From assembly GCF_036373705.1 (NCBI RefSeq), contig NC_089850.1:21063256-21127255 (forward strand): a DNA stretch of 64,000 nt, given 5' to 3'. Numbering within the stretch: the stretch's first letter is position 1; each line of letters opens with the position of its first letter. This DNA comes from Amia ocellicauda. Taxonomy: Eukaryota; Chordata; Actinopteri; Amiiformes; Amiidae. This document shows positions 4,925-59,926 of this stretch, in pieces. A program made the translations under genes and the position numbers. The notes below the pieces were generated by a model, which saw nothing but the letters and a program-made list of their open reading frames with translations, was not told where the DNA came from and did not search any database.

Positions 4925-10940
<6,016 letters not shown>

Positions 10941-14827: not shown

Positions 14828-14879
<52 letters not shown>

Positions 14880-18632: not shown

Positions 18633-21260
<2,628 letters not shown>

Positions 21261-25808: not shown

Positions 25809-28800
25809 CTAGTAGTAGCGGTTGAGGCTGCGCGTGCCCGGGATGTCAGGCTGGCCGTTCATCCAGATCTCGCGGATGATCCTCTCCCGCTCCTCCAGCC
25901 GCTGCGCGCGCTCCAGCTCCTCGGCCGAGGTGAACACGTTCATGTTGAGCGTCCTCTCGAAGCGCCTGTGCCGCCGAGCGGACAGGTCAGAGGAGGAGTC
26001 CCAGTCACTGTCGCTGTCGCTACTGCCGCTGTCACTGTCTGCCCTGCGGGGCCGTGGCTGGGGGAGGGGTGTCCTGCAGTCGGTACGGCAGGAGATCTGC
26101 ACCACCAGTGCGCATAGAGTGAGGACCAGGCCCAGACACACGCCGCCCACGAAGCACAGTGCCGCTCGCTCAGGGTGCTCTGCAAAGACACACAGGTTAC
26201 TGAGTCTAGTGCAAATACACAGGGAGCTGCTGTCTTATGCGGTTTTCCCACAGTAGCCCACTGTCGGTGCCCTGCAGTCAATATCCATCTCCGTTTCTGC
26301 ATACTTGCTGTGTTGTTCATATCTGTCTTTTCACATCAGCAGAAAGGAAAGGTATTAGAAGTGACAGTTGTGATCAATGAGACACTTTTGACCAGAAGGG
26401 ACTAACAAGGCATTATATGAGGCACCAAAATAGGCACGAAACAAAGGAAAGTGAAAGGGAATGAGTTTTGAAGGCGCACAGGTCTGAGAGAGCAGGCTGT
26501 GTCTACACACTAGAGTTAGTGTGGAGTTCAGAAGGATCTTATCTGCTGTCAGATCTGTGCAGTTGATTGAGGCTCTGTCTGCGCCCCATGCCAAGAGCGC
26601 ACAGACAGACCTCAGCGCGCACCGCTGCCTGAATTCTGTTTGTTTTTCTTTCAACAACCTGGGAGGTAAATTAAGAGAGGAAATGAAACGAGCGCATTAT
26701 TTTACCAGCTGCTTCTATAACAGGTGATTGATGACAGTTATCTATGGCATATCTGGACTAGAACGCCTGACTTGGATAATGCACTTTTATTGAACTAAAA
26801 TAGACCCTGAAAACAAAAACAAAACAGAAAAAAACAAAACAACTACATACCTGTCCTTCTGAACCGTGTGGTTTCTGGTATTTTACAACAATGTGTTTTT
26901 GTTCACAGATCTCGTTTCATGTGGGATTGGTGCAGGTGTCTCGGGCGCCGCTCTCACCTGAGATATAGGTGTAGGCCGCCATCACATTGCTGATCAGAGC
27001 CATCTGTGTGCCGACTGCCCTGGACTCCATGGTGTGGTTCAGCATCGGCTGCTCTCTGTCATCCGCAGGCTCCCACAAGGGCTTCTGTCCCATGGAGTAA
27101 GAGCCGGACTCCCTGACCCTCTTCTTCTGTTGCTCTGTACATTGCACCAAGACATCAGCACAGTCACATCTCACAGCCCAAAGGTAGGCTGCGCTGCTGT
27201 GTTTAATCAGAGGAGCTCTGCTTGCATTTAAAGGTTGCAATGGGATGTTTACAGCAAACTTCACCAGTAAATTACGACTCAGATCAAAACACATGCAATT
27301 AGATAAACTAGAATGAAATACTGCTGACCATAGTCCTGCAAAAATAGTGCAGCTATGCAGTAATTCAAGGCACCGTGTAATTACCCACTTAACGCATTTA
27401 GAAATTGGTATGAATTAAGTCAGCCAAAGTTTGTTATGAGAGGAAAGCAGTGTTTATCAATCATATTTTGTCCAGAAAATAGTTCTAATTATTATTGTTA
27501 TGTCCCAGATAAAAAACAAAGCAATTTTTAAGGAATGCAGTGGAATAGCTACAGATATATTTGTATATATATTTATGCATTTGTTGGATTATCACATTTT
27601 AAAATCCTCTTTTCCTTCAGCAAAATACTTTGTTCTAATAATGCAAACCTGCCTGTTTCCAGACTTACAAGCATTGTCTTAATATTGAGAGATTTCTGTG
27701 AGTTTCATAGTTGCCCTTCTGCTGTTGTGTGCAGTGGGTGAGAGTCTGTCTAGGCTGGGTGGCCACAGTGACAGAACTGGGTAGAGAGGCAAAGCTGGGC
27801 TGATGTATTTTTCCTAAATCCAAAATACCCAATTTATGTCCCACCCCACCTCCAAACTGCGGGGAAGAGTTCTAAAATAAATCTTTACGTCAGGAAAATA
27901 CTTTAACATTTATTCAGTTTGTTTGCTTCTTTTCATTTTCCCACATTATATATTCAGGACATGATATTCTTATATCCACTCTTTCAGATACAGATTGAGA
28001 AACCTTCGGCTGTGGTCTGGATTTAGACAGAGGGGGTGGCAGGGACTATAAACAGCGCTCAGTTCTTTTTAATTCTCAGACAGTGTACATAAATGAACTA
28101 AACATCAACATGTAGGATGGCTGTCGCCCCCTTCTAGACCTCACAAGAAGGGGTGACCCCTCCCTCCCAGCAGCTCCAAGTGGGAGCGTCAGGAGCTCCA
28201 GATCACACCCTGGCTCCCGGCCGCAAGTGTCGCAGTTAATCAGACGACTGCTGTTCGTACAAGATGTTCACTCTGATAGCTCAGTTCATCAGTCCCCGCA
28301 GGTCTCCTTCCAGCACTGAAGCATGAGCTCTCTGTAGCACCGCAGCACAGGTCTGACGTTTATTAAAGACCCACACCTGAGGGTCAGTTACACAGGACGC
28401 TCTACACATTCTTAATGTTATATGTTTGATTTGGCAGCATTCAATGATGCATTGAGTACGGCCAATTCCATATGAAGAGACTTTGTGCATAATAGTTCAC
28501 CCTCAAACTCTCATAACTGAAGCCACTGCTTTATCCATTGCTGATATAATACTGCTGTTAAACATTTGTTTTGTTCAGTAGGACAGTGACTGTTTACATA
28601 TTTGTTAATATTCTTTTTCTTTTTCTTTCCAGTGCTGTTTCCACTGCTGGATGATTGTAACACGTTGGTTGAATCGGTTGTGATTACCCTGATTCTCACT
28701 GTGTTTATATCTCACTGCCCCTCCTGTGAGGGGGTGGGACTGTGACAGCAGGATATATTGCTGTGCAGTAACATGCTCTTACAAGGACAGAAACACAAGC

Positions 28801-31800
28801 TCCAGAAATAAACAAAAATGTTCTGCTTCCCATTTTATGACATCAATAAACATGGAACTCATAACGGCTGAATATTTTAGTTTTAGTTGTTTTGCCTTTT
28901 AATTGGGATATGTTGCTGCCGCTGTTCTAGGAGCCAAATGACAGTAATCTTACCAACAAAGCAGGATGTTTCTGAACTAAAGCCAACTGTAACTCTAACG
29001 ATATCTGTCTTTTGTCCATTCCTATGTATGATGGGTTCCTGATTTGCTATTAAATTGACTGCATGCAGAGGTAGAGTCCAGGTGAGAGAGCAGGCCAAGT
29101 ACCTGAGAGAGAGTGTGAGGTCAGGACAGCTGGCCCATCAGGAGGAGCGCTGTCTCCTATAACGTTGGGGTTGCGTGACTGTGGCTGCTGTGGGGACGTC
29201 AGCTTGGAGTGGTTCTCTTCCAGCAGCTTCTTGGGGACTGGAGCAACGAGAGAAAAGCATTACAATCAGGACGCTCACTGAATCCCAGCAGCACAGCTCA
29301 CAGGGTGGCCAGAGTCAATCACTGACAGCATCCTAAAATATCCAGACACCACCTGAGTGGGTTGCGAGTCACACTGGGGCGCCTCCAGCTCACTCTCTTC
29401 TACAGGTCAGCTGGACACAGATCTTATGAGTCAGCCCCACTTATTTTCAAATGAGACACACAAAGCAAACACTGAGCATTTCAGATCTGACCATGGAAAC
29501 AAAAATAACCTTTAAATGCGTGTTTTACAGTTAAAAATTAAATCAGATTTACAGTAAGACTAATATTTAACCCACCCCCACTGATGGGCAATCTTCTCCA
29601 ATTCTGTCATCTTTTCCATCTACCCATTCTCTCAGTCAATCTTACTAACTACATTATATTTTTCTCAGATACAAATAAGCCAGATATAGAACACCCTGGC
29701 CCTGGGGCAAGAGGATGCTCAGCTCATTCTCAATTAAATAACTCCATTCACAAAGGACTCCATTCACACAACAACCCAGTTTCCATGAACAGATGTGCAA
29801 TATACACTGCAGTAACAACATTCAGACACCAAAGAAAACACATAAAAGTGTACAGTGGTCAATATCCCACAGTCTGTCTGAAATGTTTGTAAATCAGAAG
29901 CTGGTTCTCTGGCAGGCAAATAATACATTAAAATAAAATAAATTTAAATGTTCCACCCATATATTCAGTGGAAGGCTATCTGGTAATACAATTCTCATTT
30001 AGGAAAGGAAATTGACGTGCTAATACAATAGGGCACACACACATTACATATGTCTCACATTTTAGTAATGGTACATGATTTTACCACTGTATATCCGATT
30101 TCCGAAGCCATTAAACAAGGTACAATTGCAGATAAACACAATGCTGTTATTCCCATTTCCTTCACCCTGGACAATCCTCAGTTACTAACTGGATCTACCA
30201 AATTTCCCAAGACTGCTTAGGCATTGTTCCAAACTCCACACAGAGAAATTAAAGATACCAAAAAATAAAACTAACCAATTCACCAGGGACTCAGGTCTAT
30301 TTTTATCTTCATGGGAACAATGTAACTCTGCGAATATAAAATGTCAAACTTCAGCCCATGCACTGCTCTTCAGAAAAGTCACTTGTTATTTAATATTGAA
30401 ACCCCTTAGCGAACTAAGAACTAGGCCAATCAATAACATTAGAGTTTGTATTTTATTAAGAATTGCAGGCTATTAAAAATCTACACAAATGTAATGAAGC
30501 AATTCACTATTTTAAAAGTTAAACATCATTTAATTTGTTTGATTTTCACCACAAAATGTTTCACTCTGCCCTTCACAAGCCTTGTATTTCTTTATCCGTG
30601 CTGTTTGGATGTTGAGCAGAATTCAGCTACATATTGAAAGATTCCGGCTTTCACTTCAATCCAATCAACCAAAACTATGCAAACACGACAGGGTGGCTGG
30701 AATAATTCCTGTGCCGGGGTGAGCGACTTCGCTCCCCGCTGACTCCACTGTTCCAGAGCACATGACGCAAGTGACCGCCTGATTCCTGGAACACAGTGTG
30801 ATGATTCCCCATCCCACATGAGCATAATTAAATTAATCTGCCAGCGCCTGTGGGAAAGAGCTCATTCCTGGGTTACAGAGATCCACACGCCTCCTGTGGG
30901 AACCTGGAGGCCACCTTGTGCTGAACTGCTTTGCATTAAAGTGACTTGTTTACTCCACAACAAGTTGCAACAGTGCTGGGGGCGTGTGGGGGTGTGAACA
31001 GAAGCACAAATACTGAAGGGCATGTAAGAGGAAACATCTAGCGGATGTCCTTTAACAAAAAAACAAAAACATCTGTAAATGTGTTGATTTTCATATTACT
31101 AAATCATGAAAAGGGTTAGGAAAAATACACACATACACACAAGGACAGTTAGACCTGAGAAATGATTCCTTGGGTACTCCTACACCCTTTGTGGATTTGT
31201 ATATCTAATGAGTGAAAGTGTCATCAGTGACTGCATCCTAAAAACATCATTCAGATCCTGAAAACTGGATTATTTCAAATATGCAGAAAATAACCTGATG
31301 ATTCTTTGCGGATGGTACCCGATTTAGCACTGACCTCAGCTGACCATTGAGGTGAAGCGATTAAGAAGGCAAACAGCATGCTGGCGAGTTTCGGCTGCAG
31401 TACAGGTACTGAAAGATCCTAGTGGTTTGAATAATGCCTTGGTTACACCCAGAATACCAGATCAGTATAGATCTGCAATAGTGTTTTCTGTTCTAGCATC
31501 ATTAAAGGACACAGCCTGCCCAGGGAAGGACAGTCAGCCTGACGGAGTTATGACAACATTTGAAAAAAGGGCTCCTGTAGACAGGAAACAGGTGTGGGGG
31601 CGATTTGACTGGGGCCTTTAAAATCCTGAACAGAATATAAATGAAGACAACAGACTTGATCACAATCCAAGCAGCAGACTGTGGGGACACTTGCTAACGT
31701 TTATGAAGTGATACAGAGATGACAAACGTAGAGCGAGCAGAACCATTTGTCTCGATAACTGTTTTTGTGAGGCAGGAGATCTAGATTTGATTAAAAAAAA

Positions 31801-34800
31801 AAAAAAGGTACAGGACATGGCAAAAGGAGGACCTAATCTTGACACAGAAGCCCTGCAAAGCAAGGATATACCGTAGGGGCAGGATCAGTCCCTTCTGTGC
31901 TGCAGGTCACAGAGTGGTTTATTTATATGTCCACAATGGGTCTCTTTACAGAGTGGGCTGCAGGGCGTCCACACATATACAGGTTTCGGTTTCCCCATGT
32001 GCTGCTACAGCTGCTTGTTCTTTCCATAAATAGCATCCTGACCGGCTTTGTTTACAGTTAAAAGCAGGTGGACAATTCAAAGAAAATGAAGTGTTTCTTT
32101 TCCTATAATTTCATGAGAAATCAATGCATTACTAATTTGGGGATGTGGGCCATACCATCAAACCAATGAATGAGTAGATGTTTTAGTTTGGCGATAACGG
32201 TCTTCTGTTGGCATTGGGTGGGTGGGGCACAGGAGAAGGGACATCCCGAGCCTCTTGTACTGAGAACAGACTGGTCCCATAAAGGCCAGTGTCCAGCTCC
32301 TGGCAGTAATCACTGCTACTTTTATAGAGGCTCAAAAAGGCAGCCATGAGGAACAGTCCAGGACAGCAGGTCAGCGGGTGACAGAGAGCAGGTGTTCAGG
32401 TCAGGGTTCGGGTCAGGCACAAAGCAAAACTGAGCGCACAGAAAACTGTCTAATTGACAGTCAGACTCTCACACACAATAATGAAGACATTGGGAATGAG
32501 AATCTCTGCACTCAGCAGGAACCACGACGGCCTGTTCAGGAAAACAAACTACCAAGGGGAGGTTTAGCAGTAAACTGGTTTAATACATTCTCCACAGTTA
32601 GAGAACAGATTAACTGCCTATTAATAAACATTACAAATGAAGGAAGTGGAACAAAGCGGCAGTTCATCAGCTGGCAGCAGCAGATTGGAAACACGTGCAG
32701 ACAGGCAGACAGCCGCTGGTGCTTAAAGGGCTTCACTAACGGAGCCTGGTTTCAATCAAGTCCCGCACAGGTCCCGTTTAAACTGTGACTTCAAAGTCCA
32801 AACCAACAATTGTTAATTTGATTCCAGTAAAGTTTATGAATGGGTCGTCTGGTAAAAGTGTTGGAATAAATGCTTTTCTACCGAGAGAGAAAGACTGGTT
32901 CTCTCTCTGACAGATGAACTACAAAGTGAGGTCAAGTGAAAATCGAATACCACCAACTTACTCAGAAATGACTAATAGCACCTACACAACAGAGCGCAGA
33001 GACACAACATGCCCCATGAACATAGTCAATCACAATGGTTGTACCGCATAAAACAAACCCTTAAGGGTAAACTTATGCTTGGGCAGTGATTACAACTCAT
33101 ATGTTCAGGAAGTGTCAACAATCATTAACAAAACTCTCTCTCAGACATCTCCACATTAGCAGCCAAGACCTCACCCAGACTGTGTCGGACAATCTAACTG
33201 GCTCATATTTTTCTAAAGCATTCCAGCCTGGAGGTATGTGTCTGAAACTCTTAACAGCACTGAGTGTCTGTCTTTAGATGAAGTGAGCCGATTTCATGGC
33301 TTCACCGATCACACAATTTCAAACCACTACCAGAGCTGGAACTGACCAGATGCCTAGAACAGCGGGTGAGAAATCGGTGGACTTATTTTGGCTAATTATT
33401 TGCTGGATCATAACAATGTAACGTAAGTCCAGAGTTTCAGAAACACCTTTCTAGCGGGCCATTATCCGTTCTGTCCCACAAAACAAATGCAAGGTGTTCC
33501 TTAACTCGTGACACAAGCTTCTCTGCTGGTCTTTGTGAAACAGTAACTGACTCGACTGTAGTGTGATCTTCTACCTAGTGTTGGTTGATTTGTGTCATGA
33601 AAAACTGATTTGTGAATGAATAAAAGAGCCAGGTATTGTTTAGTGAAATACATTACCATGTACTGGATGCTTTTCTGACAGGAACAGGTAATGCTTTCAG
33701 CAATGATTTATTCAAGGTAAATTAACTTTGTTCAAAGTCTCAACAAAAACAACCTATCCGAGGTCCAGTGAAGTCAACTGGAAGCCAATGGAATTCAAAC
33801 TGTCTGTCTCAATACAGAGAATTATAAATATCAGTCTGCTGAAGGCTCTACAGCAAGTCACCATGCTCAGTGTGATTGATACACTGCCTTTGGCTCACTG
33901 TTATTGTACCGGATCAGCATAATTGAACATGTCCTGTATAGCCATTGTTTATTCATAGGTAGTGTTTTTTGTGCTCAGCAGCAGTGGTTAGCCTTGAAAG
34001 ACAATGGCTGCAGAGTGGCAGCTCACGGTCACAGATTACTGATGATTTTTCTTTGTCTGGAGAAGAGGAAAACGTCCTCTTGGGCTTCTCTCCAGATGCT
34101 AAACCAGATCTGAGTAAATACACAATTCAATTGCAAAATGTTATCTTCAGTGTAGTTAATGAGGTGGAATGGATGCCTGATGTTGAAATAACTGAACTGC
34201 TCTTTGTGTGAATTCTAGACTCAGTTCTAGACCCAACCCCGACGACTTTGTTGTGTTCTAGACTCATCACATTAAACCCCAGAGCCTGCAGAAGACTCTC
34301 TCTCAACTTCCACTTGCATGAACAGCAAAATATTTGTTGTCGTACATTCAGCCAAGAAAATATATATTTTTGTCTATAGTTTAGGTTCCTAGTTTCCTTG
34401 CATCTCCCAAATGTTTTTTTTTTTTTCTGCAGCTGACTTTCTCTACCTCATTAGAATCACAAAATATGGCTAGAGGCAAATTAGCTCTCTGAAGCAAAAC
34501 CTGCATTTCCTTTTCTTTTTTCTAATTCCTGAGGAATCTGAACCTGTTCCAATCCCCATATCCAGCCTTCCTGAGAAATTCCCCGTCTTTTAACTCCCAG
34601 CAGCAGAGCAGCACTGCTTGAGGACCCAGACGCACTTAAACCCACGCAGATGTGAAATGTAGCCGTCCCTGCAATAAGCAGATAGCCTGCTATTAAAGAA
34701 AGGTTAGAGAGCTTTTGTTTCCTTTGTATCTGAGAAAGTTTCCCCAACTAAAGTTCTAAAATCTTTGTTTGTGTTTTCATAACTTACTGATCCTGTTCAG

Positions 34801-37800
34801 AATGGATAACCGCACAGTTCTACACATAAACGTTTTTGTGTGTGTGATTCTATGTGCTCCATCTCTAGCCAGCTCTTAGCTTTTTTTTTTTTTTTTTTTG
34901 ATAGTGTTTTGATCCCTGGGTTATACTCCAGAAAAGGTCATGAAATTCTCAGCAGATTTGAAAAGGCATCTGTTCCTTTGAGCTGCAGACTTTTATTTGT
35001 GTTTAATTTTAAACTGCTTTCTGTCCAATATTGTGTTAAATTATCCAAAGTCTCCAGCTTCAGTGAAATATTCAAAGAATGCTTAACCACCCATTTACTT
35101 TTTAAAAGAGGGATACTCTGTAGAAACAGATCATCCTTAATGTTCACTTTCATTTCTCCTGAATGGTGATTATAAAACAGGGACACAAGCACCAGCTCAT
35201 TAGCCCCTTGGATCTGATCACAAAAGATACTAAGATCATCAGCAAGACTGTAGTCTATCAACTAAACTCTGTACTTTGGATCAAAGCCCGTTGGTGCTCT
35301 GGATTAAACACATCCTGGTAAAGTGGAATGCCGAAAACACCTGCGTTTTCATAATTCAAATAAACGTTGTCAACAGATTGAGATGATACCTTATTATTGC
35401 ACTTTCACTTGGTCAATCATTAATATCTGCCCTTTTGTCTTATGCACTTATTAAAAGGAAACTGTGGGACATGTGGGAACTCTGGAATGACAACTCCCTT
35501 TACTTCAACAGGCCAAGCTCCTTGGGTTTACCTGTGTGAGTTTGTCAGGGCACTGTGGAAGCTGTAGTTCTAGGGCAGACTAAAAACAATGTGAGTGCAA
35601 AGATGAACTACAGCTCCCAGTGTGCACACAGAGTGCTGAATAGCTGGAGGCAATAAATTCACTTCAGTTGTCAGTGGGTGAGATAAGCTGATTGGCCCTG
35701 GTTAAAAAAAAGTGATCAGACACATCTTAACCCATGTAAAAATTTAGTTTCAGAACATGAGAAAGTGCAAGAGCAACAAAGGATATGAAAAAAGCAAAGG
35801 CAGCAGAGAGGAATTATGTAATTTAAGTTACAGCTGTGATTTCCTATATACTGTATTTCTTTGGTTACGTTTGTTAAGCTTTTGACATTGACTGTTCTTT
35901 CCTGTCTAGTGTAACTAATATAGCACAAACACCATAAATCACAATACAGTACAAACACTGTGAAGGTGTTGCTTTCCTCTGCCTGACAGATGTCATTTAT
36001 AAACAGTAATTGTCCTTCAGTCAAAAATAAACTGGACTGGACTGGAACACAGCTCTGGGAATCAAAGAGGTGCACCAAACTGTGTAAGGATCATACATAT
36101 TTAATGCAAGCCTGGGATTAAACTTAATCTGACAGTACCACATATATGGTTAAAATTTTGTACAGAGTGGTACCAGAGTGTATGTCAGTGCTACCAATGT
36201 GCATCACAGGTACATTCTGTTCTGTCTGCACTTTCCTGCAGAGGAATTCATACATTGCTCTTAGGTTGGTCTCCTGCAGGGACTTCAGCAGTATGGGCAC
36301 ACATGGTTACAAATAGATTTACAGGGTATTTGACAAAGCTTGCTACCCCCATATGCCCTAGTCTGTGCTCTTCACTGTGACTAGCCTCTCTGGACTCAAG
36401 ACTCAGGTACCAGTTCTGCAGTCAGACTGGACACAGACTTCCAAGTGACCTCTAACCTTTGGTCTACTGTGATGTTTCTGAAGGTCGTGTCATTATCGAG
36501 CTGTTTTTAAGATATTTATCTAACCTGTATATGCCACCTATGTTAATGCTGCTAATCAGTACACCAAGTCCATATAAGGGCCAGGCTTAGCTGAGTATAT
36601 GGGCGTTGAGGTGAGAAGCAGCTACATTGCCTTTTCTGGCTGTGTTTGTTTAATAAAGCTGTGCTTTGCTTTGAAGGGGCCTAGTACATTACTAGTGCCA
36701 CTACTCAAGACCTTAACGAGCTACAGCATATTTCACTGCTGCAAAACTGGAACTAGAAAATACCAGGTATCTTAAGAATCTGATGATTTGTTTGTTGCTG
36801 TATTATTTCTAAATTTAAAATGTAGTTTTATGAGAAGAGTAATATATAGACATCTGGAATGTCTATGTATATATACATATAGTGTTACATAAACAATATA
36901 TTAAACAATATATGTAAACATACGATGAGAGCCAGTACTAATTCTACTGTAAAAGTAATCAACCTTAGTAGCTGATGTGCGATATAACACCCAAGACTGA
37001 ACATAATTATAAACGTAGATTGAATGGGTCATAGAAACGTTGTCTGTAGCCGCACTCTCATTATAGAAGTATTGGAAAAGACTATTGTGTTTTTATCAAA
37101 AGAATGTTATCAGGTAGCCAGATAGCAGATCCCGGGGGGGGGGGGGGGGGGGAAGGTTAACAACATATCGTCCCTCAGAGAGACTGAGTTCTCCACTTAC
37201 TGAGCATCTCTTACAGTCCACGCTCTCCACCCCCTTTGCCACAGTTAGTCCATACCAGTTATAAATTAGCTGAAACTATTGATGCAGTGTGGTTTATAAA
37301 ACAATACAACAAACCTACAATATAAAATGTGTACATTTCCAGCAAAAAGTGTTATATAAAAACCCAACTAAGACGTCTGCACTTCACATACTACCTGAGC
37401 AGGTTCTCCATCCCATTCATTGTGCTTCTCATTTGTGCGGATTAACAATAATATCAAACAATTTGATCACTTCTGTCTTTTTCCATATTTTTGTTGTTAA
37501 CAGTCCTGTGAAGCACACACCGGCCCTTGGCTCCCAGAACAAACTGCTTTTAATGAGGGTGGAGTTTGCTCATAAAAAATACCATGTGTTTAATTTCAGG
37601 CTTTACCGACAAAGTGCACTTTGAGGATTATCAATTCTGACACTGGTAGTTTTTTCCCTGTGGGTATCACATTCTCATCTAATTACCTTGTTCAATTCTG
37701 TTAACTGTGAACTTAGGAGACTGTGTTCCAGAGAAGTATTTTTAACAGCAGGACCTGACTAGAAAAAACAAACTGTATTATCAAATATTGAAATGCAAAT

Positions 37801-46800: not shown

Positions 46801-49800
46801 GACTTCCTGTCTACACCGGTGCGTGTGACTCATCGAGCCCCCTGCTTATGCACACAGACTCCAGCCCTGGCAGATAGCAGCAGTAATTTCCTGTGCACAG
46901 AGCCCAGTGCTGTGAGTGCCAGGTCCCCAGCAGCCTGGCGCAGGGCTCCCCTTTGTTTGGTCACTCTATAGTGGAGAGCTCTGTCAGCGGGAACAGGAAG
47001 AGGCAGAGTCGTTCTTCCTATTGTTCCTCCAGCTCGCTGGGAGCCTGTCAGGCTCTTACTGAGCGCTGGTAGAGTGAGGAGTTGTAGGAGCACTGCTATA
47101 ACACCACCTACAAAACTGCCAGGGCCGATGAGAGCAGGAGAGAGGAGAGGGTAAACCCAGAGCACTTATGGCCTGCACACCCCCAGAACCATCTGCCATT
47201 CTCTCACCCGAGCCCACAATGCCTGAGACGCCACCGGGGACAATGGACTACACACAGGGCAGTTAACCGCACCCCTTCTTCCTGTGGGACTCTGCCAATC
47301 AGGCACCACCCCCGGGGAACTCCTGACCACGCACAGCAGTGTGTGCCAGTGTAATTGTGGGATTGTAATACATCAGTAAAGGAAGCTGAGACAGAGCTCA
47401 CCAACTGTGCAACATCATCACTGGGAATGCATTTAATCTTAAGCCCTGCAGATATAGTCAAATAAAGTCAATATTTTACAGGTCAGCAATGTCAGATTCT
47501 TAATTACAGCCGACAATGTGCATCACCTTTAGAGATCTATACATAACTTATTTTAAAGCCTTAACTACGGGCAGAACATAACAAGACCTGCAAGTGAAGC
47601 ATGTGGCTTTTTAATTAACACTACCCCCTTACCAGGCATGCGTCTCATTTTCTACGAGCTTTATAATGGGAATTCCTGTCTCTTCAACCCAGGGGTGAAA
47701 AGTAACGAATTTCAACTACTCTCGTTCCTGTAATTGAGTAGCTTTTTAGTGTACTTGTACTTTGAGTATTCTTCAAATTTGTTAATTTTACTTTTACTTA
47801 AGTATGTTTTGAGTTAAGTATTGTACTTCACTACTTTTAAAAAGGCATTCGTTACAGAGTACACATTTTGTAGGCTGTCATTGAAAAATAAAAATAAAAA
47901 TGTGTATGACAGACCTACTTGTGCTGTTTTCAGTGCGTTTTCAAAGTTCCAGTCATTCCATAGAAATCAGCTGTCATTCCATGTCGTTCCACTTTTATTT
48001 TATACATTAAGTTATTTTAAAGAAAGTGTATTTAGGATTTTAGGATTCCTGTGTGGGATTTGAAGATATAGACAATCCTTCTGTTTTCCCCAATGTAATC
48101 TATGGACATTCCACTCCCCATTATAGTCAATGGGCATTCCCTTTGGTCATTCGTTTTAGTCTGTCCCAAATACAGCCTCCTGTCCTGACCAGTGATGTTC
48201 CCCACAATAAAGTTATATCAACATTTATTTGTGTTCTAGGTAAGTTGGTATTGTGATTTTATTTGTATTTATTTATTTAAATATCAGCTACAGCCATTTA
48301 GAAATAATAATAACACAAACTTTTAAATCAATAGAACTGTTACTTTATTGTTACATCTCTCTACACTCTGGCCATGACTGAGGAAAAAAAAAATTATATA
48401 TTAGTACTGTGCAAAAGTTTTAGGCAGGTGTGAAAAAATGCTGTAAAGTAAGAATGCTTTCAAAAATAGACATGTTAATAGATTATATTTATCAATTAAC
48501 TAAATGCAAAGTGAGTGAAAAATCTACATCAAATCCATATTTGGTGTGACCACCCTTTGCCTTCAAAACAGCATCAATTCTTCTAGGTACACTTGCATGA
48601 AGTCAGGGATTTTGTAGGCATATAGTCAGGTGTGTGATTAAACAATTATACCAAACAGGTGCTAATGATCATCAATTCAATATGTAGGTTGAAACACAAT
48701 CATTAACTGAAACAGAAACAGCTGTGTAGGAGGAATAAAACTGGGTGAGGAACAGCCAAACTCAGCTAACAAGGTGAGGTTGCTGAAGACAGTTTACTGT
48801 CAAAAGTCATACACCATGGCAAGACTGAGTACAGCAACAAGACACAAGATAGTTCAACTGCATCAGCAAGGTCTCTCCCAGGCCGACATTTCAAGGCAGA
48901 CAGGGGTTTCCAGATGTGCTGTCCAAGCTCTTTTGAAGAAGCATAAAAAACGGGCAAAGTTGAGGACCGTAGACGCAGTGGTCAGCCAAGGAAACTTACT
49001 GCAGCAGATGAAAGACGCTTCATGCTTACTTCCCTTCACAATCGGAAGATGTCCAGCAGTGCCATCAGGTCAGAATTGACAGAGACCCTGGTACATCCAT
49101 CTACTGTCCGGAGAAGTCTGGTCAGAAGTGGCCTTCATGGAAGACTTGAAGCCATACCTCCGACGTGGAAACAAGGCCAAGTGACTCAACTATGCATGAA
49201 AACACAGGAACTGGGGTGCAGAAAAATAGCAGCAGGTGCTCTGGACTGATGAGTCAAAATGTGAAATATCTGGCTGTAGCAGAAGGCAGTTTGTTCACTG
49301 AAGGGCTGGAGAGCAGAACATGAATGAGTGTCTGCAGGCAACAGTGAAGCATGGTGGAGGTTCCTTGCAAGTTTGGGGCTGCATTTCTACAATGGAGTTG
49401 GGGATTTGGTCAGAATTAATGGTCTTCTCAATGCTGAGAAGTACAGGCAGATACTTATCCATCATGCAATACCATCAGGGAGGCATCTGATTGGCCCCAA
49501 ATTTATTCTGCAGCATGACAACGACCCCAAACATACAGCGACTGTCATTAAGAACTATCTTCAGCGTAAAGAAGAACAAGGACTCATGGAAGTGATGGTT
49601 TGGCCCCCACAGAGCCCTGATCTCAACATCAAGTCTGTCTGGGATTACATGGAGAGAGAGAAGCAGCTGAGGCTGCCTAAATCCACAGAAGAACTGTGGT
49701 TAGTTCTCCAAGATGTTTGGGCCAACCTACCTGCCAAGTTCCTTCAAAAACTGTGTGCAAGTGTACCTAGAAGAACTGATGCTGTTTTGAGGGCAAAGGG

Positions 49801-49961
49801 TGGTCACACCAAATATTGATTTGATGTAGATTTTTCTTCTGTTCACTCGCTTTGCATTTAGTTAATTGATAAATATAATCTATAAACATGTCTATTTTTG
49901 AAAACATTCTTACTTTACAGCATTTTTTCACACCTGCATAAAACTTTTGCACAGTACTGTG

Positions 49962-49995
<34 letters not shown>

Positions 49996-52900
49996 TATTT
50001 ATGTTTGCTTGGAGATAATGTGTTAAATGTGCGTTGTTAAAAGTAAATATGTTACTTATACTCCAAATACATTTTAAATGAGCTACTTATTACTTTTACT
50101 TTAGTAGTTTTTAATACCAGTACTTTTACTATCTCCTTGAGTAGGATTTTTTAGTACTCTTTCCACTTCTGCTTAAACCTCATCAAGCTTGCGGCTCTTA
50201 ATTTGGCTGATCAGCCTCAGACTCACCACAGGTATAGATGACGTGAAGGTGTTTGCGGACACCGGAGTAACAGGGGTCACCAAACTCCTGTGGGGAAGCG
50301 TTCACACTGCAGCTCCTCCTTCCATGGCACCACGTCATCACGACTGGCAGGGCGCGGCTCGACTGGCACTCTGCAACACAGACACATCCTGAGAGACTGG
50401 ACACACAGGACACGGACCCTGAGAGAGTAAACACACAACACTGACTTGGAGATAAATGGCTGCTATGCTGACAGTACTAAGGTTTTGTGCACTTTCAGCA
50501 CTTCAGTAAAGTAAGTTCTCAGGTTTTGTCAACGATTTTCCTAAGGCCAACTCTGGTGCCATTGTGTGCCTGTGTGACAGGGTGAACTATCTAGTTTGTT
50601 TTTGTTTCGTCTCCAAATATTTCCCTAACTTCCCTTTTTGTGTGACAATGTGTGAAGGTGATACGAATTAAGCATGTATGAGGACTTACCTTTCCTTCCC
50701 ATAAATCACTGCAGTGTTTCCACCATATTTGGAGATTAGGTTATATTGGTGAACAGGGGTTGAGTGAACTTATGAATTGAAAGATGGCCGCCTGGGCTTA
50801 TCTAGAATGCCACATGAGCATTCAAAGGTCAGAGGTCAAATGAATGTTTGATAAAAGTAATGGTATGTGTTTTTATGTTTTGGTTTGTGTGTTATTCAAA
50901 GACATAATGGATATTGTCATTGTAATATTACATTGTAGTAAGATTAGAAGCCTGATGTATTAACCTTAACTGCAGGTGCAAAGAATTATGGGTAAATGGG
51001 CTATAAAAGGAGCTGGGTCTCCTCAGATGCAAGGAGAGTGAGGGCCTGCAGACAGCTTGCGGCAGAAACTGTGAGCAATAAAGAAACCCCAATCATTTGA
51101 TTTTTTGGGATCCTGTTTCCTTTGTTTTGTTTTGATTTGTTTTTTGTGTGTTTGTTTCAAATAAACTGTTTGATTATTGACACAAAATCAAGTTGATCAG
51201 GACATCCTTGTTTTGCCACACCCTGCTCACTAGGGACTGCTATAGCCTGACTTGGTTGGCGTTGCCAAATGCAGATCCAAACCTTAATTTCTTTGGTCAA
51301 ACTACAGAGCTGTGACTCGCTGAAGCCATGACCAGTGTCTGTCATGGCCCTGCCACCCACCTCACTCGCTGTACTCATTGTTGTTGAGAAACTGGACCCA
51401 GCGATGGCACAGCGCCACACTGCAGCGTGACTCTTGAAGGAATCGGAGACGTGCCACACTGACTGCTTTGATATTCTCCTCAATGGACAGTCTGGAAAGG
51501 CTGTGATCACATGTTTTTTTAACCAACCTGAGGAGGTATGATATACATAACAGTGCTCAGTGACTGCAAGTGTCACAGGAGAATGTGTTTTTTTTTTTGT
51601 TTTTGTTTTTTAAGTAGAAATAATGTGGAGGAAAAAGGTAATCTTCTCCCACTCATCTGATTAAAATGGAGGCAGTATTTACATTTCTTTAAAGAAGTAA
51701 ACACAGTTCAAACATTCTCCAGGACAAAGCAGAGTGTTGACTGAACGTGATTCTGTGGTGTCCCGCACCCTGGTGTTTTGTCCTCCAGACACCTGATAGG
51801 GAGAGTGTCAGAGAGCAACACAGACTCGGTAACAGATGGGGAACGGAGGGTCATTAATCTTACCTGCAGGAAGTGTCATTTTCGAGACCCTGCAAGTCGC
51901 TCGTTTATTGTATTGTGTCATTTTGACCTTTCTGATGTCAAGGTGAACAAAAATGCACAAGCCCTGCTTATCCTAAATAGCACACTATGTTGGGTGTTCA
52001 TTACCACTTGAAACATTAACTGTCAAGGTACAAATCAACCCTGAAACCATGTCTTTAAAACAGGCCTGGTGTCAAGGTTAGACAAGTGTTCCTCTCATGA
52101 AGCAAAGCTGCTGCCTACTATAATAATCTTCTTTCATAGTATAGCAGGTTGTGTCTGGAAATCCAGGCTTTCCATGTCTAGAAATGGTCACAAGTGCTTT
52201 CGAATGATAGCCCTCACTTTAACGGAGTATAAGTAGACAGGTGGAATTAAGTCTCAGTGATTTAATACTATTTTCTCACTTTTCCATGCTGCCTGGTGTA
52301 TTGTGAGCATGAAAGCAAGAGATGAGTGACAATAAGATAAAGAGAAACAAGACCCCAATCTCATGATGTTCTTAAAGGAAAAAAAAACAACATGTAAATC
52401 TGACCCCAGTAACATAATCAGTACAAATACCACCTGTCTTTCAAACTTTGAAAAATCTTAAGCTCATGTTTAGCTGTGTATTAATATAATGTATATATGT
52501 ATTATAATTATTAATCTTGTTTCTGGACTGGTCTGATAACATTCAATATCTCTTTAGTAATATATTGATTACCCATATTTTACAACAGCACAGATTGCAG
52601 GATGTGTTGTTCATCACCGTCTGATTTTCTGAGAGCACATCATGATCACATCTGAACTCTTCACTATCTGTGATGCCTGAGAGTTGTTGCAATAAAAGGC
52701 TAAATCTACCATTTGAGGAATGGCTGAGAGCCCAGGATTCAACAGTTCTCCAGTGTCCATGGTTATAAGTCCTATCCAGGATATCCTTGCTTACAACTCT
52801 GGGAAACCAAACACAATTAATCCAATTACAGCTGCTCCTCAGGCAGAGAAAGTAGAGACCTGCCTGAACTGGAGTGAATGCTTACAAACCATTATCATCA

Positions 52901-55900
52901 CTTCTGGATGGGAGCTCTTCAGTGTAGAAAACTCTAATGGAGTTAAATACAAATAAAGAAGAACATTCTGGAATTCATTCACAATGTGGGATTGTGAGAT
53001 GGAGGAAGAGAGTCCATTTTGAATATCTATCAATCTATATTTCTTAGTAATTAAGCAGGTGTATCAAGACAAGGCCTTTCAAAAGTTGATGCCAAGTCTA
53101 AATTACCCATATATAACTAAGTCAATGCTATTACTGTTTAGACATTTAATACCTGAAGTTCACCAACTAAGCTATAGTTTTATTAATACAACCTATAGCA
53201 GGAAGCGAAGAAAATGCTCAAGTATTGGCCCTGGGATCCCAGTGATTCACTGCCCAGCAGTAATGAAGCCTTGAACCAAGGGTGGCTACACAGTCTCCAT
53301 GGTTGCTGGCTCTGTAACAGATACACAGCTAAAGGACCTCAGCAGATGAAGCTACTGTCTGTGAACTAACTTTGAATTTGACCTCCAGGTGTCCTTTAAG
53401 AGCATTCCCACAGTCCAGATTGGACAGACCTGAGAACAGCTTTAATGCACTGCTGCATTCCAGCGCTGCGGGCTCAGTCTCTCCGTGCTGCTCTCGCTCG
53501 GCAGCCTGACCTGGGATCAGCAAGAATGGAGAGCAGCCCCTCCATCAGCCAGGGTCAGTGTCACTTCCCACTGGGCTGCGGAAATGAAAGGCTTTAATGT
53601 GATGCCAAGGGCGGGTCTCCTTTCAGTTCCACATCAGTGACAGATGAATACAGATAGACTAGGTATTCTTTCACATAAAAACAGATTGTTCTTCAATATG
53701 CCTTTGCTGAAGTCATTCCTCAGTCAGTTACTGAGTTCATTTTCACTCTTGCAATCATTCAGGTTGGGTAAAACCACCTCCTTTCTGCTGTGCTTGGGGG
53801 GCCCCTGTCAGGCTGGGTTACAGTTTCAGGTGCAATCACAATTTTTCCGCTCTGATCAAAGACACGTCTCGGTGAGAGAGCCGAGGCCACATTTTAATAA
53901 GAAGAACATTAAACTGCAATCTTTAATTTGGCAACTCCATGAAAATAAAATTTAAACTGCAATCATTCATAATTACAGATTACTGGTGATGAACAATGAC
54001 TAAAAGAAACTCTGGCTCTGATTCCATCCTCCCACTCATCCACAAGCCTCTTTCACTGCTTCCAGTTTGTTTTTATCTTATCTTCATTAAAGCAGGAGTT
54101 ACTCAACTGAGAAGGACTTTTAAGGTGAAGGGATTCTGCAAAGCTGTGGCATTTAACCTGAAACAATGATCAGGCTTTCCAGCCTCTGAATCCCGCACCG
54201 CACAGCAATGCTTTATGTAACCAGAAGTGAGATTGTAGTTTAACCAGTAAATCCATGCACACATGCATTCATACATTTAATAAATCCATCTTTAATTATA
54301 ATTTTTTTTCCACAGACTGACATTTTTTCCCAAAGAAGATCTGCATTTGAAGTTTTCCTCTTCCTTCTCCTTCTCCCTCATCCTTCTCTCCTGTCCCTAA
54401 TTGCACCCCAGCAGAATAAAGATTCCCTCTCTGCTGAGAGCACAAGGTCCACAGGCTCAAGAGCGATTAATTGGTCTGCTCTCAATGTACAGAAAGTCTC
54501 AGTGTGCAGCCGCTGGTGTGTTTATTATGACTCTGGATAATCCTTGACTGTTAGAAAACAGTTCCTACACGGATGCACATATTCAGAGTAAATTCAGGGT
54601 TCGCACTCTCAGGACACTGATGGTCAACTTCAAACTGAACTTTACCTTATGTTCACCCATATTAAGTAGTTCATATATGCTGCAGCCACAGCTCCCCATT
54701 ACAAAGATGTAACTGTGTAGCCATTCTATGTGGCAATGATTGATTAACAGTGTGAAATAATTAAATTATATGACTTTAAATGACAACCTAAAGCTTGTCT
54801 GTATTTTCCAGCTGAGCCGATTGTCTGCAGTGATGTGTCCTATCGCCAGTCACTGGCCTACACTGTCTACACAGTGCAGACTGAGTTATCAGGTAATTTC
54901 GTTACAAAGCCCAGTGGAGACTTTCCTGAGTAAAGCTAAAGTGCTCTTCCAACTTGGCACACTGACAGGGGGTTTCTCAGACATGACACAGAGCAACAGC
55001 AACAAACGCATTCACCCTATTTTCTTAAAACAACAGGAATTTCAACACAGATTCTTAATCACATTTACAGTACAGAGCTAGAGAAAATGGCTAGGAACTG
55101 TAAGACTGGTGAACATATTGTACTCGAGTAGGTTAGTGCTGCCAGTGCTAATTACAGGTTTTGTACTCTACAAATATGTTCCCCCTGTAAACATCCTCTA
55201 AATCAGCTTCGAGACACATAATAGCAGACTACACACCACACTTCTTTATAGAGTCTAACCACGTTGCTTGGATACAATATACTTGAAGTGTTTAGAAACC
55301 TTGGATTCCCACTTACAAACTGGGAGAAAACTCTCAGACCCATGACAGATTTGGTATCTCTAACAGACATTTAAAGTTGACTATTCAGCAGGGCTATAAT
55401 AAAGTAATATTATACTTTATTTGTTCATTTTGTAATATGAAACCTGGCAAGGTATGAATAAGTCAGATGTCATATTATAGACAGACTCTAGGGCATGATC
55501 CATTGCTATAATGGACGCAGGTGACTAATGACATTCAACCTTCATATTCCACTCCATCTGATGTTTGCATTTCCAACCTGGTTGCTGGGCTTTTGTAAAC
55601 CTGATACACTTGGAGGGTATTTATTCTGGTGCCATCTGCTCATATCACTTAATGTGAACTATCTTGTCAGCCTGAACAGGTACGGTCACTGGAAGGCATT
55701 TGTTAAATCCTCTGATCACGGCTCCAGAGTCAAGCCTGAACAAAATGTTGGTTATGAATAAAAGTAGCTTCTACATCCAGTTTGTTCAAACAGCAGGTGT
55801 CGGGAAACAGCAGAGTGTGGTCATGTGATGTGATGTCACAGGGCTATGTGGTGGGACCCTGCCACTGTGCTGCTCTTACCTATTGCGGGGGCTGTGCTGC

Positions 55901-58900
55901 TGGCATGGGGGCAATCCACACGGCCCTCCAGAGAGTGTCCGAACAGCGCAGAGTACACTGCAATCACCGTGCTCCGCCTGCAGCTCAGCCTCATCCTCTG
56001 GCCCTCACACACCACTTTGCTCTTATACTCATCTACCAATGAAGCACAGAGAGCACAGTGTCTGCTGAGTGGAAAGGCCTAAAAGAGCTGCATTAGTAAA
56101 ACTATGAAAGCTTCTTTTAAAAACGTCTGAATAAACAATGGAAAAGAGTGCCTATATATCCATATCTCAACTGGAGTGCTTTAAAAAGAAAAAGAAAAAT
56201 AATTAGAAAAATATTAGTAAAAGAAGGAGAGATGCACTTGGATTTTCTTTTGGGGCAGAAGGCACAAAATAGAATGCATGAAATCACAGCTCAGTCTGAG
56301 GATTATCAAACTGAAATGACAAGAATAAATGATCTAAGGATGGTATTTTCATGAATTCTTACTCATTGTTATTGAGAGTGCACGGGCAAAGAAACAGCAG
56401 AGAAGAAAAGGAAGTCTGAGTCTTCAGTTCTGTTATTCTTTCCTTGAAAGAATAGATCAAGCAACCCGAGAAAATCAGTGAAGCAGGTGTTGGCGTAGGG
56501 GTGACTGGGCTCCTGGCAATGTAAACAATTGAGCAGTGAGATGGGAAGAGGGAGGAGAGAGAGAGGGGAAAGAGGGAGAGACAGAGATAGGTGGAGGGTC
56601 CTTACTTGGCCGGCACTTGTACCATACAGTGAGGTGCTTGCTGTGTCTCGGGCAGGGGTCAGGTCCAAAAAGCCGGCTGTTCACAAGCATGTGACAGCTC
56701 CTCCTGTCCTGGCACTCATCCCACATCTTCTACACAAGGTGTGAGAGAGAGAGACATTTTTTCAACTACCACACAAGTTTATGGTGTTTAGAAGGCCTGG
56801 AGGTTAACATCTCTCTGTGATGAGCACAGACTGACCCCACTTTGAGCTCTGGCTCTCAGCTAGGCACTGGAGCCAATCAGGGTAGCGGTCAGGAGAAAAT
56901 AACCATTAACCTCAGGGTCTGAATTGTGCTCCCACACAGGAAAGGTCTTATCCACAACACTGAATGTTCCCCACACACTGCTGTGCATTTTCTGCCACAC
57001 TGGGAACACAGAGACAGTCAAACAGGGTCCTATGAAACGTGAGGACTCGGGCCTCTATAATACTTGACCCTGGGGCATGTTCCTCAGCCAGGATTAGATG
57101 TGACAGGTGATGTGTGCACACTGAGACAGGTATCCCAGGCTCCAGGCAATGTGCGGTCTGATCAGTGCTGAGAAGACTAAAGAACTGTAAACAATCCACC
57201 TGTCACTCAACACGCCCGGCCTCAGACACATGCTCTAAAAATTACAGCAGTAACTAATACACTTTTCAGCACATACTTTTAAAGACAATTCAGAGACTCG
57301 GTTAATGAGCAGATTTATGTTGATAAGATCTTGAATCCCTCTTTGTTTTAATAATTTAACACTCCTAATCTGAACTGTCAGCACTAAAAAGTGATTTTTA
57401 AATGTGTTTTTCTAATTCATAGGCCTACAGTTCACTTTCAAATTTAATTATTAAAAAAATACATCAATCAATTTGTAGTATATGCATACTACCAGTGCTC
57501 ACTGAAACCTGGTCACTAAACACAATATTACAGAAAATGCAGATGACCAAATGATGGAAAGAGGTTTGCGTGGAATAACAATAACAATGAATGGATCTGA
57601 AAACAAACAGAAGATGACCATATAGAAAATGGGAAAATGAAATCATAAAGTTTGCAGGCATGACATGGAAAAGAGAAGCTATATATCGAAGCAAGCGGAA
57701 ACATCTTGGGGAGGCCTTCATCCAGGTGTGGATCAATATATATTTCTTCACTTATACTACTACTACTACTACTACTACTACTACATATTATTATTATTAA
57801 TAAACTGTCCTAAAGCACCACATATGCATTTTATTTCACACCAACTTCACACTGTGCTATCTCCGATAAGGAGGGATAGAGAGCAATGCCGAAAGTTCTG
57901 TCTCTCTGCTTCCTAACGAACTATGATCCGATTTAAAATTAATCAATAAAGCGGGTTTTAGTGCAACCTGAAAAAAAATATGCGATTAACAGAGATAACA
58001 GGAAGTAAGTTAGTGTCCGTGCTACTATGCAAGTTATGCATATACCTCAGAAGAGGTGACATTATATATGTTTTTAGTAACATTAGTGTAAATAGACTAC
58101 AATCTTTTAATGTATCAATCACTTGTGTATTTTATATCAGTCAGTCATTCATTAAACTGTTATAGAGGGCAATGGCACGTTTTATAGTGGACAAGGGGTG
58201 TTCATAGGGGACAGGGGATATTCTTAAAGTGTTGAATCTGCTTGTTTTCTCATATTAGACAAAACTGCACTTGAACCAACAACATCCATTTTGGACGGTG
58301 GAGTAGGGGGCCAGTTCAGAAAATCAGTAGTAGTAAGCTTAAGTATATCTGTCTTAATTTAGAAAGGAAGGCAATAAGAATTAAGTACACAATGTGCACT
58401 GTTCTTGTCCCCTCTAGTGCAGGCTAGTACAAACCATATTGCTACAGGAATTCAGATATTTGTAATCGTTTTACATTTTAACCTCAGATATTGCCCTGCA
58501 TTCCAGGAGGAATAGTTAATACTTGTGTATTATAGGATTACGGGCAATTAGGCTTAAATCTAGGAATTAAAAACACAAATGCATATTATGTCATGAGGAA
58601 TACCTGTGCAGGTAGTGATGCTGTAATAAGGTAAAACCTGTACACAATAAACTATAAGCACAAGTCTTGACTGAAAACACAGACTACACACTCAGTGCTC
58701 TACTGACATTCATAATCACAGCTTTGTTTCCAGAAGGGCAATTACTTTAAGTACTGTGCAGTTGCCCACTCATCAAGCACCCACTTCACCCAAATCTCCC
58801 AAAACCACAATAAATAAATACAGCTAAGATTGAGCTCTTCTGTGACTTTCTGTGATTCATTCTGTGAGGCTGAATGCAAGTGCTCTTTGCTGCCTCCTTG

Positions 58901-59926
58901 AGAGAGCTCTCCTTCTATATAACTTACTGCATATGACCATTCTTCTGTATTCACAAACCAGTTAAGTCACAGGTATAACAAGCACGGTCAAACCCTGGAT
59001 CTCAGCATCCCACAGACAGCTGCAAATGTGTTGTCACTCAGTGAAGCATACACAACGTCAGAGCTATACACAAAAAACTTAAGCAAATATGTCAGACGCA
59101 AATGGTTTACCTGGAAAGAACAGCTTTAAACCTTTATTCAGTCAAGATTATATATTTTGCCATAAGCAACATTAAAATAATTGAATCAAATTATCAGACA
59201 TATAAGGGTGAATGACATCAATTGAAATAAATCCAAAGCTCAACTACCCTTAGACAAAATAGATTTTCCCACCTGGATTCTACACTTTGTCATTTGCTTT
59301 CACACATTCTGATACTCGATACACTGCAGAATCAGCTCCCGAGCCACCTCTCTGCAAGAGGACTGAATCTCCACATCAAGACATGGGTCACCTCCTCAGC
59401 AAGAGTGTCAACACGGCGACAGTTTCCCCATGTCAACACTGTGACAGAGGGTCACATGTCACACTGCTCTTCACCACAAGGAGTGCAGCACAGATAACGA
59501 CTTCGGATGGGAGGGCTGAGGTTTATCCCCAGTTAAATATATTTTTTAAGTTCAGTTCAATTAAAATATACTAAGATTTATTTCAGGACCAAGACTGATG
59601 TCACATATCAGGGAAAATTATAACAACAACAACAACAACTCAAAGTAAAAATAATGTCACAAATTATTAGTTAAAATGATTGTCTGTAAATAAGCGGAGG
59701 CGCAGGCTCACCTGGAGTGAAGTGGACACAGAGCAGGGTGTCCCGTCTCGGTGCTGTGGGGTGCTGGGGGTGCGGGAGTGGGATGGGCACTGTTGCTGGC
59801 TTTGGGCTCTCTGGCCATAGAAGGAGGACTGGATGCTGATGGTGGTTCTGGGAGGACAGCGCACAGACAAGTACTCTCCATCACACGCCTGCTCACTGTA
59901 ATTCCTCAGTGCTCTGGACAGGTGCC
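25809..59926 (-). CDS. eva1c/eva1a: EVA-1 homolog: two SUEL lectin domains, one TM, EVA1A-like cytoplasmic tail (7 exons, first exon not in window)
   Basis: Type I membrane protein of the EVA-1 family (C. elegans EVA-1 is a Slit co-receptor). Exons in order: 59926-59712, 56729-56606, 56032-55880, 50370-50227, 29237-29103, 27134-26958, 26179-25809. All junctions are GT-AG with consistent phase. They encode 439 residues; the signal-peptide exon is expected further upstream. Exons 1-2 form lectin domain 1 ([34 protein letters not shown]). Exons 3-4 form lectin domain 2 ([33 protein letters not shown]). Exon 5 begins VPKKLLE, as EVA1C does after its second lectin. Exon 6 holds the juxtamembrane part ([17 protein letters not shown]). 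Exon 7 has the TM segment ([17 protein letters not shown]), a Ser/Asp-rich stretch, [11 protein letters not shown] and the tail ending [17 protein letters not shown]. That tail is of EVA1A type, not EVA1C type, so orthology is unresolved. Confidence 0.9.
35606..35625 (+). promoter_or_regulatory. ZNF143/SBS-like motif
   Basis: AACTACAGCTCCCAGTGTGC resembles the ZNF143-type consensus ACTACAATTCCCAGAATGC. A partial inverted copy (AGCTGTAGTTCTAGG) lies about 40 bp upstream. This arrangement also occurs in dispersed repeats, so the call is weak. Confidence 0.25.
36571..36657 (+). repeat. TATA to poly(A) pair, possible LTR fragment
   Basis: CATATAAGGG at 36571-36580 is followed about 80 bp later by AATAAA at 36652-36657, with a GT-rich stretch after it. 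This compact promoter-to-poly(A) order is typical of LTR R regions. No LTR ends or target duplication were found. Confidence 0.25.
37134..37152. repeat. Run of 19 G
   Basis: Uninterrupted guanines in the EVA-1 21-kb intron, preceded by CCC. On the transcribed strand it is a C run. Such a run can fold into a G-quadruplex and is prone to length error in assembly. Confidence 0.9.
45458..45922 (-). pseudogene. Tc1 transposase remnant
   Basis: Part of a Tc1 catalytic domain. The first Asp is present ([11 protein letters not shown]) and the glycine patch [11 protein letters not shown] is intact. The second Asp is lost where the family has QDNDPKH, here FNNPKH. After NVLEWP the sequence jumps to unrelated residues, so the PDLNPIE motif with the catalytic Glu is missing. 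The N-terminal DNA-binding region is not in frame. It cannot encode an active enzyme. Confidence 0.85.
46296..46456 (+). mobile_element. tRNA-derived SINE
   Basis: A tRNA-like head with a pol III A box (TGGGGTAGTGG, 46305-46315) and B box (GGTTCAAATCC, 46350-46360). It is followed by the fish SINE tail GGATAAGAGCATCTGCTTAG and an AATGTAATGT end. The element lies inside the right half of the decayed Tc1 element, so it inserted later. The target duplication is not clear. Confidence 0.85.
48402..49962 (+). mobile_element. Tc1-like element with long inverted repeats, nested in the hAT-like element
   Basis: Inverted repeats of roughly 200 bp. The outer part reads TACTGTGCAAAAGTTTTAGG on the left; the right arm is the same with few changes and extends to ACACCAAATATTGATTTGAT. 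TA-rich flanks fit a Tc1 insertion. The right flank is a (TATG)n run. The transposase inside is inactivated. Confidence 0.88.
48816..49819 (+). pseudogene. Frameshifted Tc1 transposase
   Basis: It begins [20 protein letters not shown], a Tc1-type helix-turn-helix start, and ends RAKGGHTKY, the usual Tc1 C-terminus. Reading moves between frames (48816-49079, then pieces to 49249, then 49328-49819). Catalytic-region traces are [18 protein letters not shown] and [10 protein letters not shown]. In the last, the PIE motif is altered so the catalytic Glu is lost. Frameshifts and stops make it non-functional. Confidence 0.85.
49961..49998. repeat. (TATG)n microsatellite
   Basis: About eight copies of a GTAT unit immediately beyond the right end of the nested Tc1 element. 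Confidence 0.9.
50580..51160 (+). repeat. Possible solo LTR
   Basis: Contains TATAAAA at 51002-51008 and AATAAA at 51077-51082, 75 bp apart, then a T/G-rich stretch. This resembles the U3-R-U5 order of an LTR. TG...CA ends and a target duplication could not be fixed, so it may be another repeat type. Confidence 0.3.
57755..57784. repeat. (TAC)n trinucleotide repeat
   Basis: About ten copies, followed by a short ATT-repeat stretch, in the intron between the first two visible EVA-1 exons. Confidence 0.9.

Follow-up and report, generated by a model that had tools for sequence, protein, structure and literature searches.

A 64,000-nucleotide stretch of the genome of Amia ocellicauda (contig NC_089850.1, positions 21,063,256 to 21,127,255) carries on its minus strand a gene of the EVA1 family that is very probably the EVA1A orthologue of this fish, and one that has kept the ancestral EVA-1 architecture, its product most likely working as a type I surface co-receptor and a short form being probable besides. 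A single open frame runs through a pair of SUEL lectin domains, the linker that follows them, a transmembrane helix and a cytoplasmic tail of the EVA1A type. In what follows the whole stretch is called the window, its contig is C1 (the window being C1:21063256-21127255), and the other EVA1 loci, found by searching the 988 Mb genome, are named after their contigs C3, C10 and C11; positions without a contig prefix are those of the window.

The seven exons proposed in an earlier note on this DNA are numbered 2 to 8, all on the minus strand, with the number 1 kept for a candidate exon outside the window. Exon 2 (59712..59926) encodes the first half of lectin 1 and was placed by its splice sites and frame and by a homologous exon in C3 and C10, its SUEL match (C1:21122967) lying by itself below the family cut-off; exon 3 (56606..56729; SUEL match at C1:21119868) encodes the second half and is 124 nucleotides long in all three lectin-bearing genes. 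The first half of lectin 2 is found in exon 4 (55880..56032), which the genome-wide SUEL search missed and tblastn with human EVA1C detected, its 153 nucleotides equalling the length in C10, and the second half in exon 5 (50227..50370; SUEL match at C1:21113483), of 144 nucleotides in all three genes. Across the 21 kb of intron 5 (29238..50226), where the list of open reading frames includes two Tc1-like frames, lies exon 6 (29103..29237), which encodes the extracellular linker, has a first codon to which exon 5 contributes its last base, and corresponds to a C10 exon reading VPKNLLEE. Exon 7, in the version of the earlier note (26958..27134), encodes the juxtamembrane region and begins at a weak acceptor, 27134, with a stronger in-phase acceptor available at 27335. 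Finally, exon 8 (25809..26179) encodes the transmembrane segment and the EVA1A-type cytoplasmic tail with its stop codon, and gives a FAM176 match at C1:21089067-21089444 (E 3.9e-48). That these exons join in phase into one frame was borne out by their exact ends, with AG at all seven acceptors, GT at the six internal donors and a frame open to the stop.

A simple scan for an ATG, hydropathy and a donor places a candidate signal-peptide exon 1 upstream of the window, at C1:21140785-21140683; a wider scan gave four candidates, this one among them, and between exon 2 and MRPL19 no other scores 7. Joined to it, the model has eight exons and 473 amino acids, in which Pfam recognises two stretches of SUEL_Lectin (E 5.8e-35) and one of FAM176 (E 1.6e-58), a third match, to a DnaJ-like family, being weak and below its cut-off. 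Comparison with PDB sequences (E 0.1) returned 12 distinct sequences, named as rhamnose-binding lectins or latrophilins, with a best E of 9.9e-36. All 16 lectin cysteines common to C1, C3, C10 and human EVA1C are kept in C1, and the hydropathy peak at residues 359-377 marks a single transmembrane helix which, by the exon joining, is in frame with the lectins. The assignment of the first five exons to two SUEL lectins and a linker is confirmed by Pfam, the cysteines and the VPK linker, and the likeness of the last two to EVA1A by the FAM176 match and by 73% identity to human EVA1A.

A chance origin of this architecture is excluded in practice, because this genome has it at two further loci, with matching exon lengths. 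In exons 2 to 8 these are, in nucleotides, 215/124/153/144/135/177/371 in C1, 200/124/150/144/69/90/338 in C3 and 200/124/153/144/72/87/383 in C10, the acceptors reading AG and the donors GT, and the junction phases are 1,0,1,1,1,1,1 in all three (counted from candidate first exons of 103, 91 and 100 nucleotides). Genome-wide, 19 candidates scored against the FAM176 profile gave four matched places, on C1, C3, C10 and C11, and no second EVA1A-like locus was detected among them. The C11 gene is EVA1B by its tail; C11 has none of the 27 SUEL matches found genome-wide (E up to 10), and tblastn with human EVA1C over 60 kb there found no lectins either. Since the SUEL search found three of the four lectin exons at each lectin-bearing locus, with one of these under the family cut-off, the silence of C11 is informative without being absolute. 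The C3 gene is EVA1C by both its tail and the lectin tree, and has what we take to be a URB1-like neighbour (judged by eye).

The fourth copy, at C10:14097560-14103870, has an open eight-exon model of 420 amino acids with two lectins and a strongly diverged tail (FAM176 E 1.1e-11) in which much of the conserved EVA1 core is missing; an open reading frame recorded with it, by eye presumably C1GALT1C1-like, has no Pfam match (8943-9974 of the piece L037). Elsewhere on this contig, at 40.167-40.221 Mb, a cluster of SUEL matches is perhaps one of secreted egg-type rhamnose-binding lectins. The C10 copy was considered as a teleost duplicate of EVA1C and rejected as such, its lectins being 54% identical to those of C1 against 45% to those of C3, with the other two four-taxon topologies rejected at p 0.016 and 0.046 in the approximately unbiased (AU) test. 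What we take to be HoxA13-like genes lie on both C3 and C10, the two loci fetched out of four Hox13 loci, a pairing that suggests the teleost genome duplication or some other extra duplication. A WFQN homeobox motif, looked for as a mark of Hox14, is absent from both of these Hox pieces. The C10 copy may be a teleost duplicate of EVA1A or else a fourth paralogue of older origin. No support was found for a neighbourhood common to C1 and C10, the nine DM10 matches in the genome being divided into four beside EVA1A on C1, five on C6 and none on C10. A zebrafish 'C21orf63 homolog' of 380 amino acids on chromosome 14 is tabulated in an excerpt of PMC3269628, and may be the counterpart of the C10 copy instead of EVA1C.

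To which paralogue does the tail on C1 belong? Over exons 7 and 8 it is 73% identical to human EVA1A, as against 53% to the EVA1B and 42% to the EVA1C of the same genome. The earlier note had proposed separate trees for the lectins and the tail, with a tail lying within EVA1C as the outcome that would count against it; with tails from C1, C3, C10, C11 and human, the AU test rejects that placement (p 0.00035). In the tree of these seven tails C1 and human EVA1A stand apart from the other five (ultrafast bootstrap, UFBoot, 91), and among the seven topologies tested a position inside EVA1B is also rejected (AU 1.8e-10). The long-branched C10 tail has two placements that are not rejected (AU 0.37 and 0.24), the latter grouping it with C1. 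Some of the evidence pulls the other way: (i) the trees hold just seven tails and four lectin sequences; (ii) a tail sister to EVA1C is rejected only marginally, with AU at 0.049 while the Kishino-Hasegawa (0.064) and Shimodaira-Hasegawa (0.43) tests fail to reject it; and (iii) the AU test does not reject a tail sister to EVA1B (0.079). The human gene order at 2p12 places MRPL19-GCFC2 beside EVA1A and matches C1, where MRPL19 exons (found with a probe) lie upstream on the plus strand, at about 20 kb from exon 2 and 2 kb from the candidate exon 1. Beyond MRPL19 a GCFC-domain gene at C1:21148084 lies on the minus strand, as EVA1A does. The genome holds six GCFC matches, one on C1, another on C3, where 2.2 Mb separate it from EVA1C, and the remaining four on C23; PAXBP1 is located near human EVA1C, and the C1 gene is presumably GCFC2, not PAXBP1.

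The third of these points, the unrejected sister position to EVA1B, would also suit a gene that is a fourth vertebrate paralogue with an EVA1A-like tail, the true EVA1A having been lost in this fish. So would its surroundings on the other side: the neighbour directly downstream (13272..16418, minus strand), where Pfam finds DM10 in three of the four open reading frames scanned, presumably belongs to the EFHC1/EFHC2 type and has a relative on C6 near 30.07 Mb, and a probe for TACR1, a neighbour of human EVA1A, had no match in the regions searched, which extend to roughly 56 kb downstream. Yet such an origin is very unlikely given the preference of the tail for human EVA1A over the EVA1B of its own genome, an 11-residue stretch and the SLNRYY motif held in common with the former, and the adjoining MRPL19 and GCFC genes. 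Tail tree, microsynteny and common introns together support the suggestion of the earlier note that this may be the EVA1A ohnolog with an ancestral ectodomain that mammals have lost.

That the ectodomain is ancestral, and mammalian EVA1A a product of its loss, looks to be the case because the EVA1C orthologue and the C10 copy carry lectins with the same introns. The lectins of C1 are 54% identical to those of C10, 43% to those of C3 and 45% to those of human EVA1C; between C1 and C10 the nonsynonymous and synonymous distances are 0.42 and 1.5 (dN, dS), with proportions of differing sites pN 0.321 and pS 0.649 over 210 codons, synonymous sites here being near saturation, as they are saturated between C1 and C3 and between C3 and C10. 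A four-sequence lectin tree pairs C1 with C10 (UFBoot 95), a pairing that might be expected had this gene regained its lectin exons from EVA1C or from the fourth copy, through gene conversion or the shuffling of exons. Identities as low as 54% and 43%, and introns that keep the same places and phases, the linker exon included, make this extremely unlikely; the common intron positions and deep lectin divergence fit descent and not a recent capture of exons. If fish EVA1A kept its lectins, then the lack of them in EVA1B would be a loss separate from the one leading to mammalian EVA1A. The two-lectin EVA-1 of the worm, as described in an excerpt of PMC4133157, supports the lectins as the older state.

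Descent of the exons together leaves the question of their use together. Splicing of the lectin exons to the tail exons is inferred here from the DNA, with its weakest points at exons 6 and 7. When splice sites are scored with a generic matrix, acceptor 27134 of exon 7 reaches 2.5 bits (the 75th percentile of the 1,383 AGs in intron 5), the donor of exon 6 is a modest 5.1 bits, and the two exons are about twice as long as their C3 and C10 counterparts, all of which counts against the long protein. The weak acceptor, the good start-codon context in exon 7, the 21 kb span of intron 5 and the fact that mammalian EVA1A is known only as a short form would be consistent with a divided gene. In it exons 1-6 would serve a secreted product or a transcript with an end of its own, exons 7-8 would be transcribed by themselves as an ordinary short EVA1A, and the long protein would be made rarely or never. 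Such a division seems unlikely on several grounds. Exon 6 is separated by 2 kb from exon 7 and by 21 kb from the remaining lectin exons, and without exon 5 its first codon is incomplete; the alternative acceptor 27335 is in phase, open and strong (9.1 bits, 99th percentile); two accepted acceptors in C3 are no stronger than 27134 (0.9 and 2.4 bits); and exon order and phases are kept in the paralogues. Moreover, the exon 8 acceptor (7.0 bits) is in phase with exon 6, and since exon 7 is a multiple of three long in either form, direct joining of exon 6 to exon 8 stays in frame. A joined receptor and a short protein could both come from this locus: a candidate short-form start codon in exon 7 (27028..27030, minus strand, context ACCATGG) opens an EVA1A-like product of 147 amino acids, and stands 10 residues before MALISN where human EVA1A begins 14 before MALLSN. 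One gene probably makes both the long receptor form and the short form of about 147 amino acids.

The protein proposed on this basis would comprise the candidate signal peptide, two SUEL lectins followed by a linker, one membrane-spanning helix and, in the cytoplasm, a tail of the EVA1A type. At the cell surface the tandem lectins would bind a glycan, or a guidance ligand that is glycosylated or associated with heparan sulphate, and the conserved tail would engage cytoplasmic partners, while from the exon 7 start codon the same gene would make the short form; in the lineage to mammals the ectodomain would have been lost so that the short form alone remains, EVA1B losing its lectins separately. 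C. elegans EVA-1 needs both lectins, its transmembrane segment and its tail, with the lectins required for binding the cue MADD-4, according to the excerpt of PMC4133157, and human EVA1C is cited as binding heparin in the portions of PMC3269628 and PMC8277382 consulted. Direct binding of sugar is a further matter, as in latrophilin-1 the change of Glu42 to Asp lowers rhamnose affinity from 1.8 to 144 mM, about 80-fold (PMC2430599, excerpt). Comparison by eye with the latrophilin sequence puts Asp at the Glu42 place in lectin 1, and in lectin 2 keeps the Glu but puts Phe at the Tyr63 place. Both lectins keep the loop Lys. Judged by these residues, sugar binding by the lectins is doubtful, which detracts from the proposed ligand class.

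With respect to the cytoplasmic side, residues 60-152 of EVA1A bind the WD-repeat part of ATG16L1, as given in an excerpt of PMC5108317. This allows the speculative and rather improbable proposal that ancestral EVA1A was a lectin receptor which recruited ATG16L1 and so coupled a glycan or Slit-type cue directly to LC3 conjugation, mammalian EVA1A being a constitutive remnant and the fish gene making both forms. Coupling of the tail to ATG16L1 is a guess; a TMEM59-type ATG16L1-binding motif is absent, in strict and relaxed versions, from all seven proteins tested, which leaves the published binding of residues 60-152 as its one basis.

The remainder of the window holds few other features. An uninterrupted Tc1-type transposase frame of 346 amino acids, identified by Pfam, lies at 18879-19916 on the minus strand, the Tc1-like frames of intron 5 are at 45461-46024 (minus) and 48711-49816 (plus) by eye, and no other genes were recognised by eye among the open reading frames of at least 100 amino acids in that intron. 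In a GC-rich stretch at the start of the window an open frame of 365 amino acids (788-1882, plus strand) is acidic and serine-rich in its second half, with just two weak Pfam matches below cut-off, and a perfect (CA)30 microsatellite occupies 6227-6286.

The combination of lectins with FAM176 is already known; for EVA1A, no account of it was found in the literature searched. Among the matches listed from open-licence papers, titles and the starts of abstracts give no description of an EVA1A with lectins, fish gene records being outside that scope, and automatic annotation of fish genes may already hold such models. Five papers name EVA1A, EVA1B and EVA1C together; by title, two concern glioma and one each gestational diabetes, penguin ageing and mouse implantation. 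In the portions of the literature consulted EVA1A is studied as a small autophagy protein of the endoplasmic reticulum and lysosome, EVA1C and EVA-1 as axon-guidance co-receptors, and an evolutionary link between them goes unmentioned. A lectin-bearing EVA1A would link the autophagy protein and the guidance co-receptor families by descent. It suggests that human EVA1A arose by loss from a surface receptor, under which its tail evolved, and that EVA1B reached the same short form separately. The fish gene also lends itself to asking whether engagement of the lectins and recruitment of ATG16L1 are parts of a single pathway.

Among known systems, EVA1B has in common with EVA1A a 25-residue block, in this genome too, and differs from the C1 gene in that C11 gives no SUEL match. 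The C-terminal lectin of C. elegans EVA-1 is without the sugar-site glutamate and loop lysine, according to the excerpt of PMC2430599, whereas lectin 2 of C1 has, by eye, both Glu and Lys. Mammalian EVA1C (C21orf63, FAM176C) resembles the C1 gene in its two SUEL lectins, the VPK linker after lectin 2, the single transmembrane segment and the FAM176 tail, and its fish orthologue on C3 has the same exon phases; its tail, however, is of the ELAERIERREQ type, where that of C1 is of the EVA1A type, its placement inside EVA1C being rejected. Mammalian EVA1A (TMEM166, FAM176A) agrees with the C1 gene in a transmembrane segment and tail that are 73% identical, in its C-terminus and in the MRPL19-GCFC2 neighbourhood, but has 152 amino acids and no lectins. 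The fish gene does not have this mammalian form, as its lectin exons are in the same frame as the tail, and its model carries about 290 extra residues of lectins and linker, which come after the candidate signal peptide and before the start of the short form.

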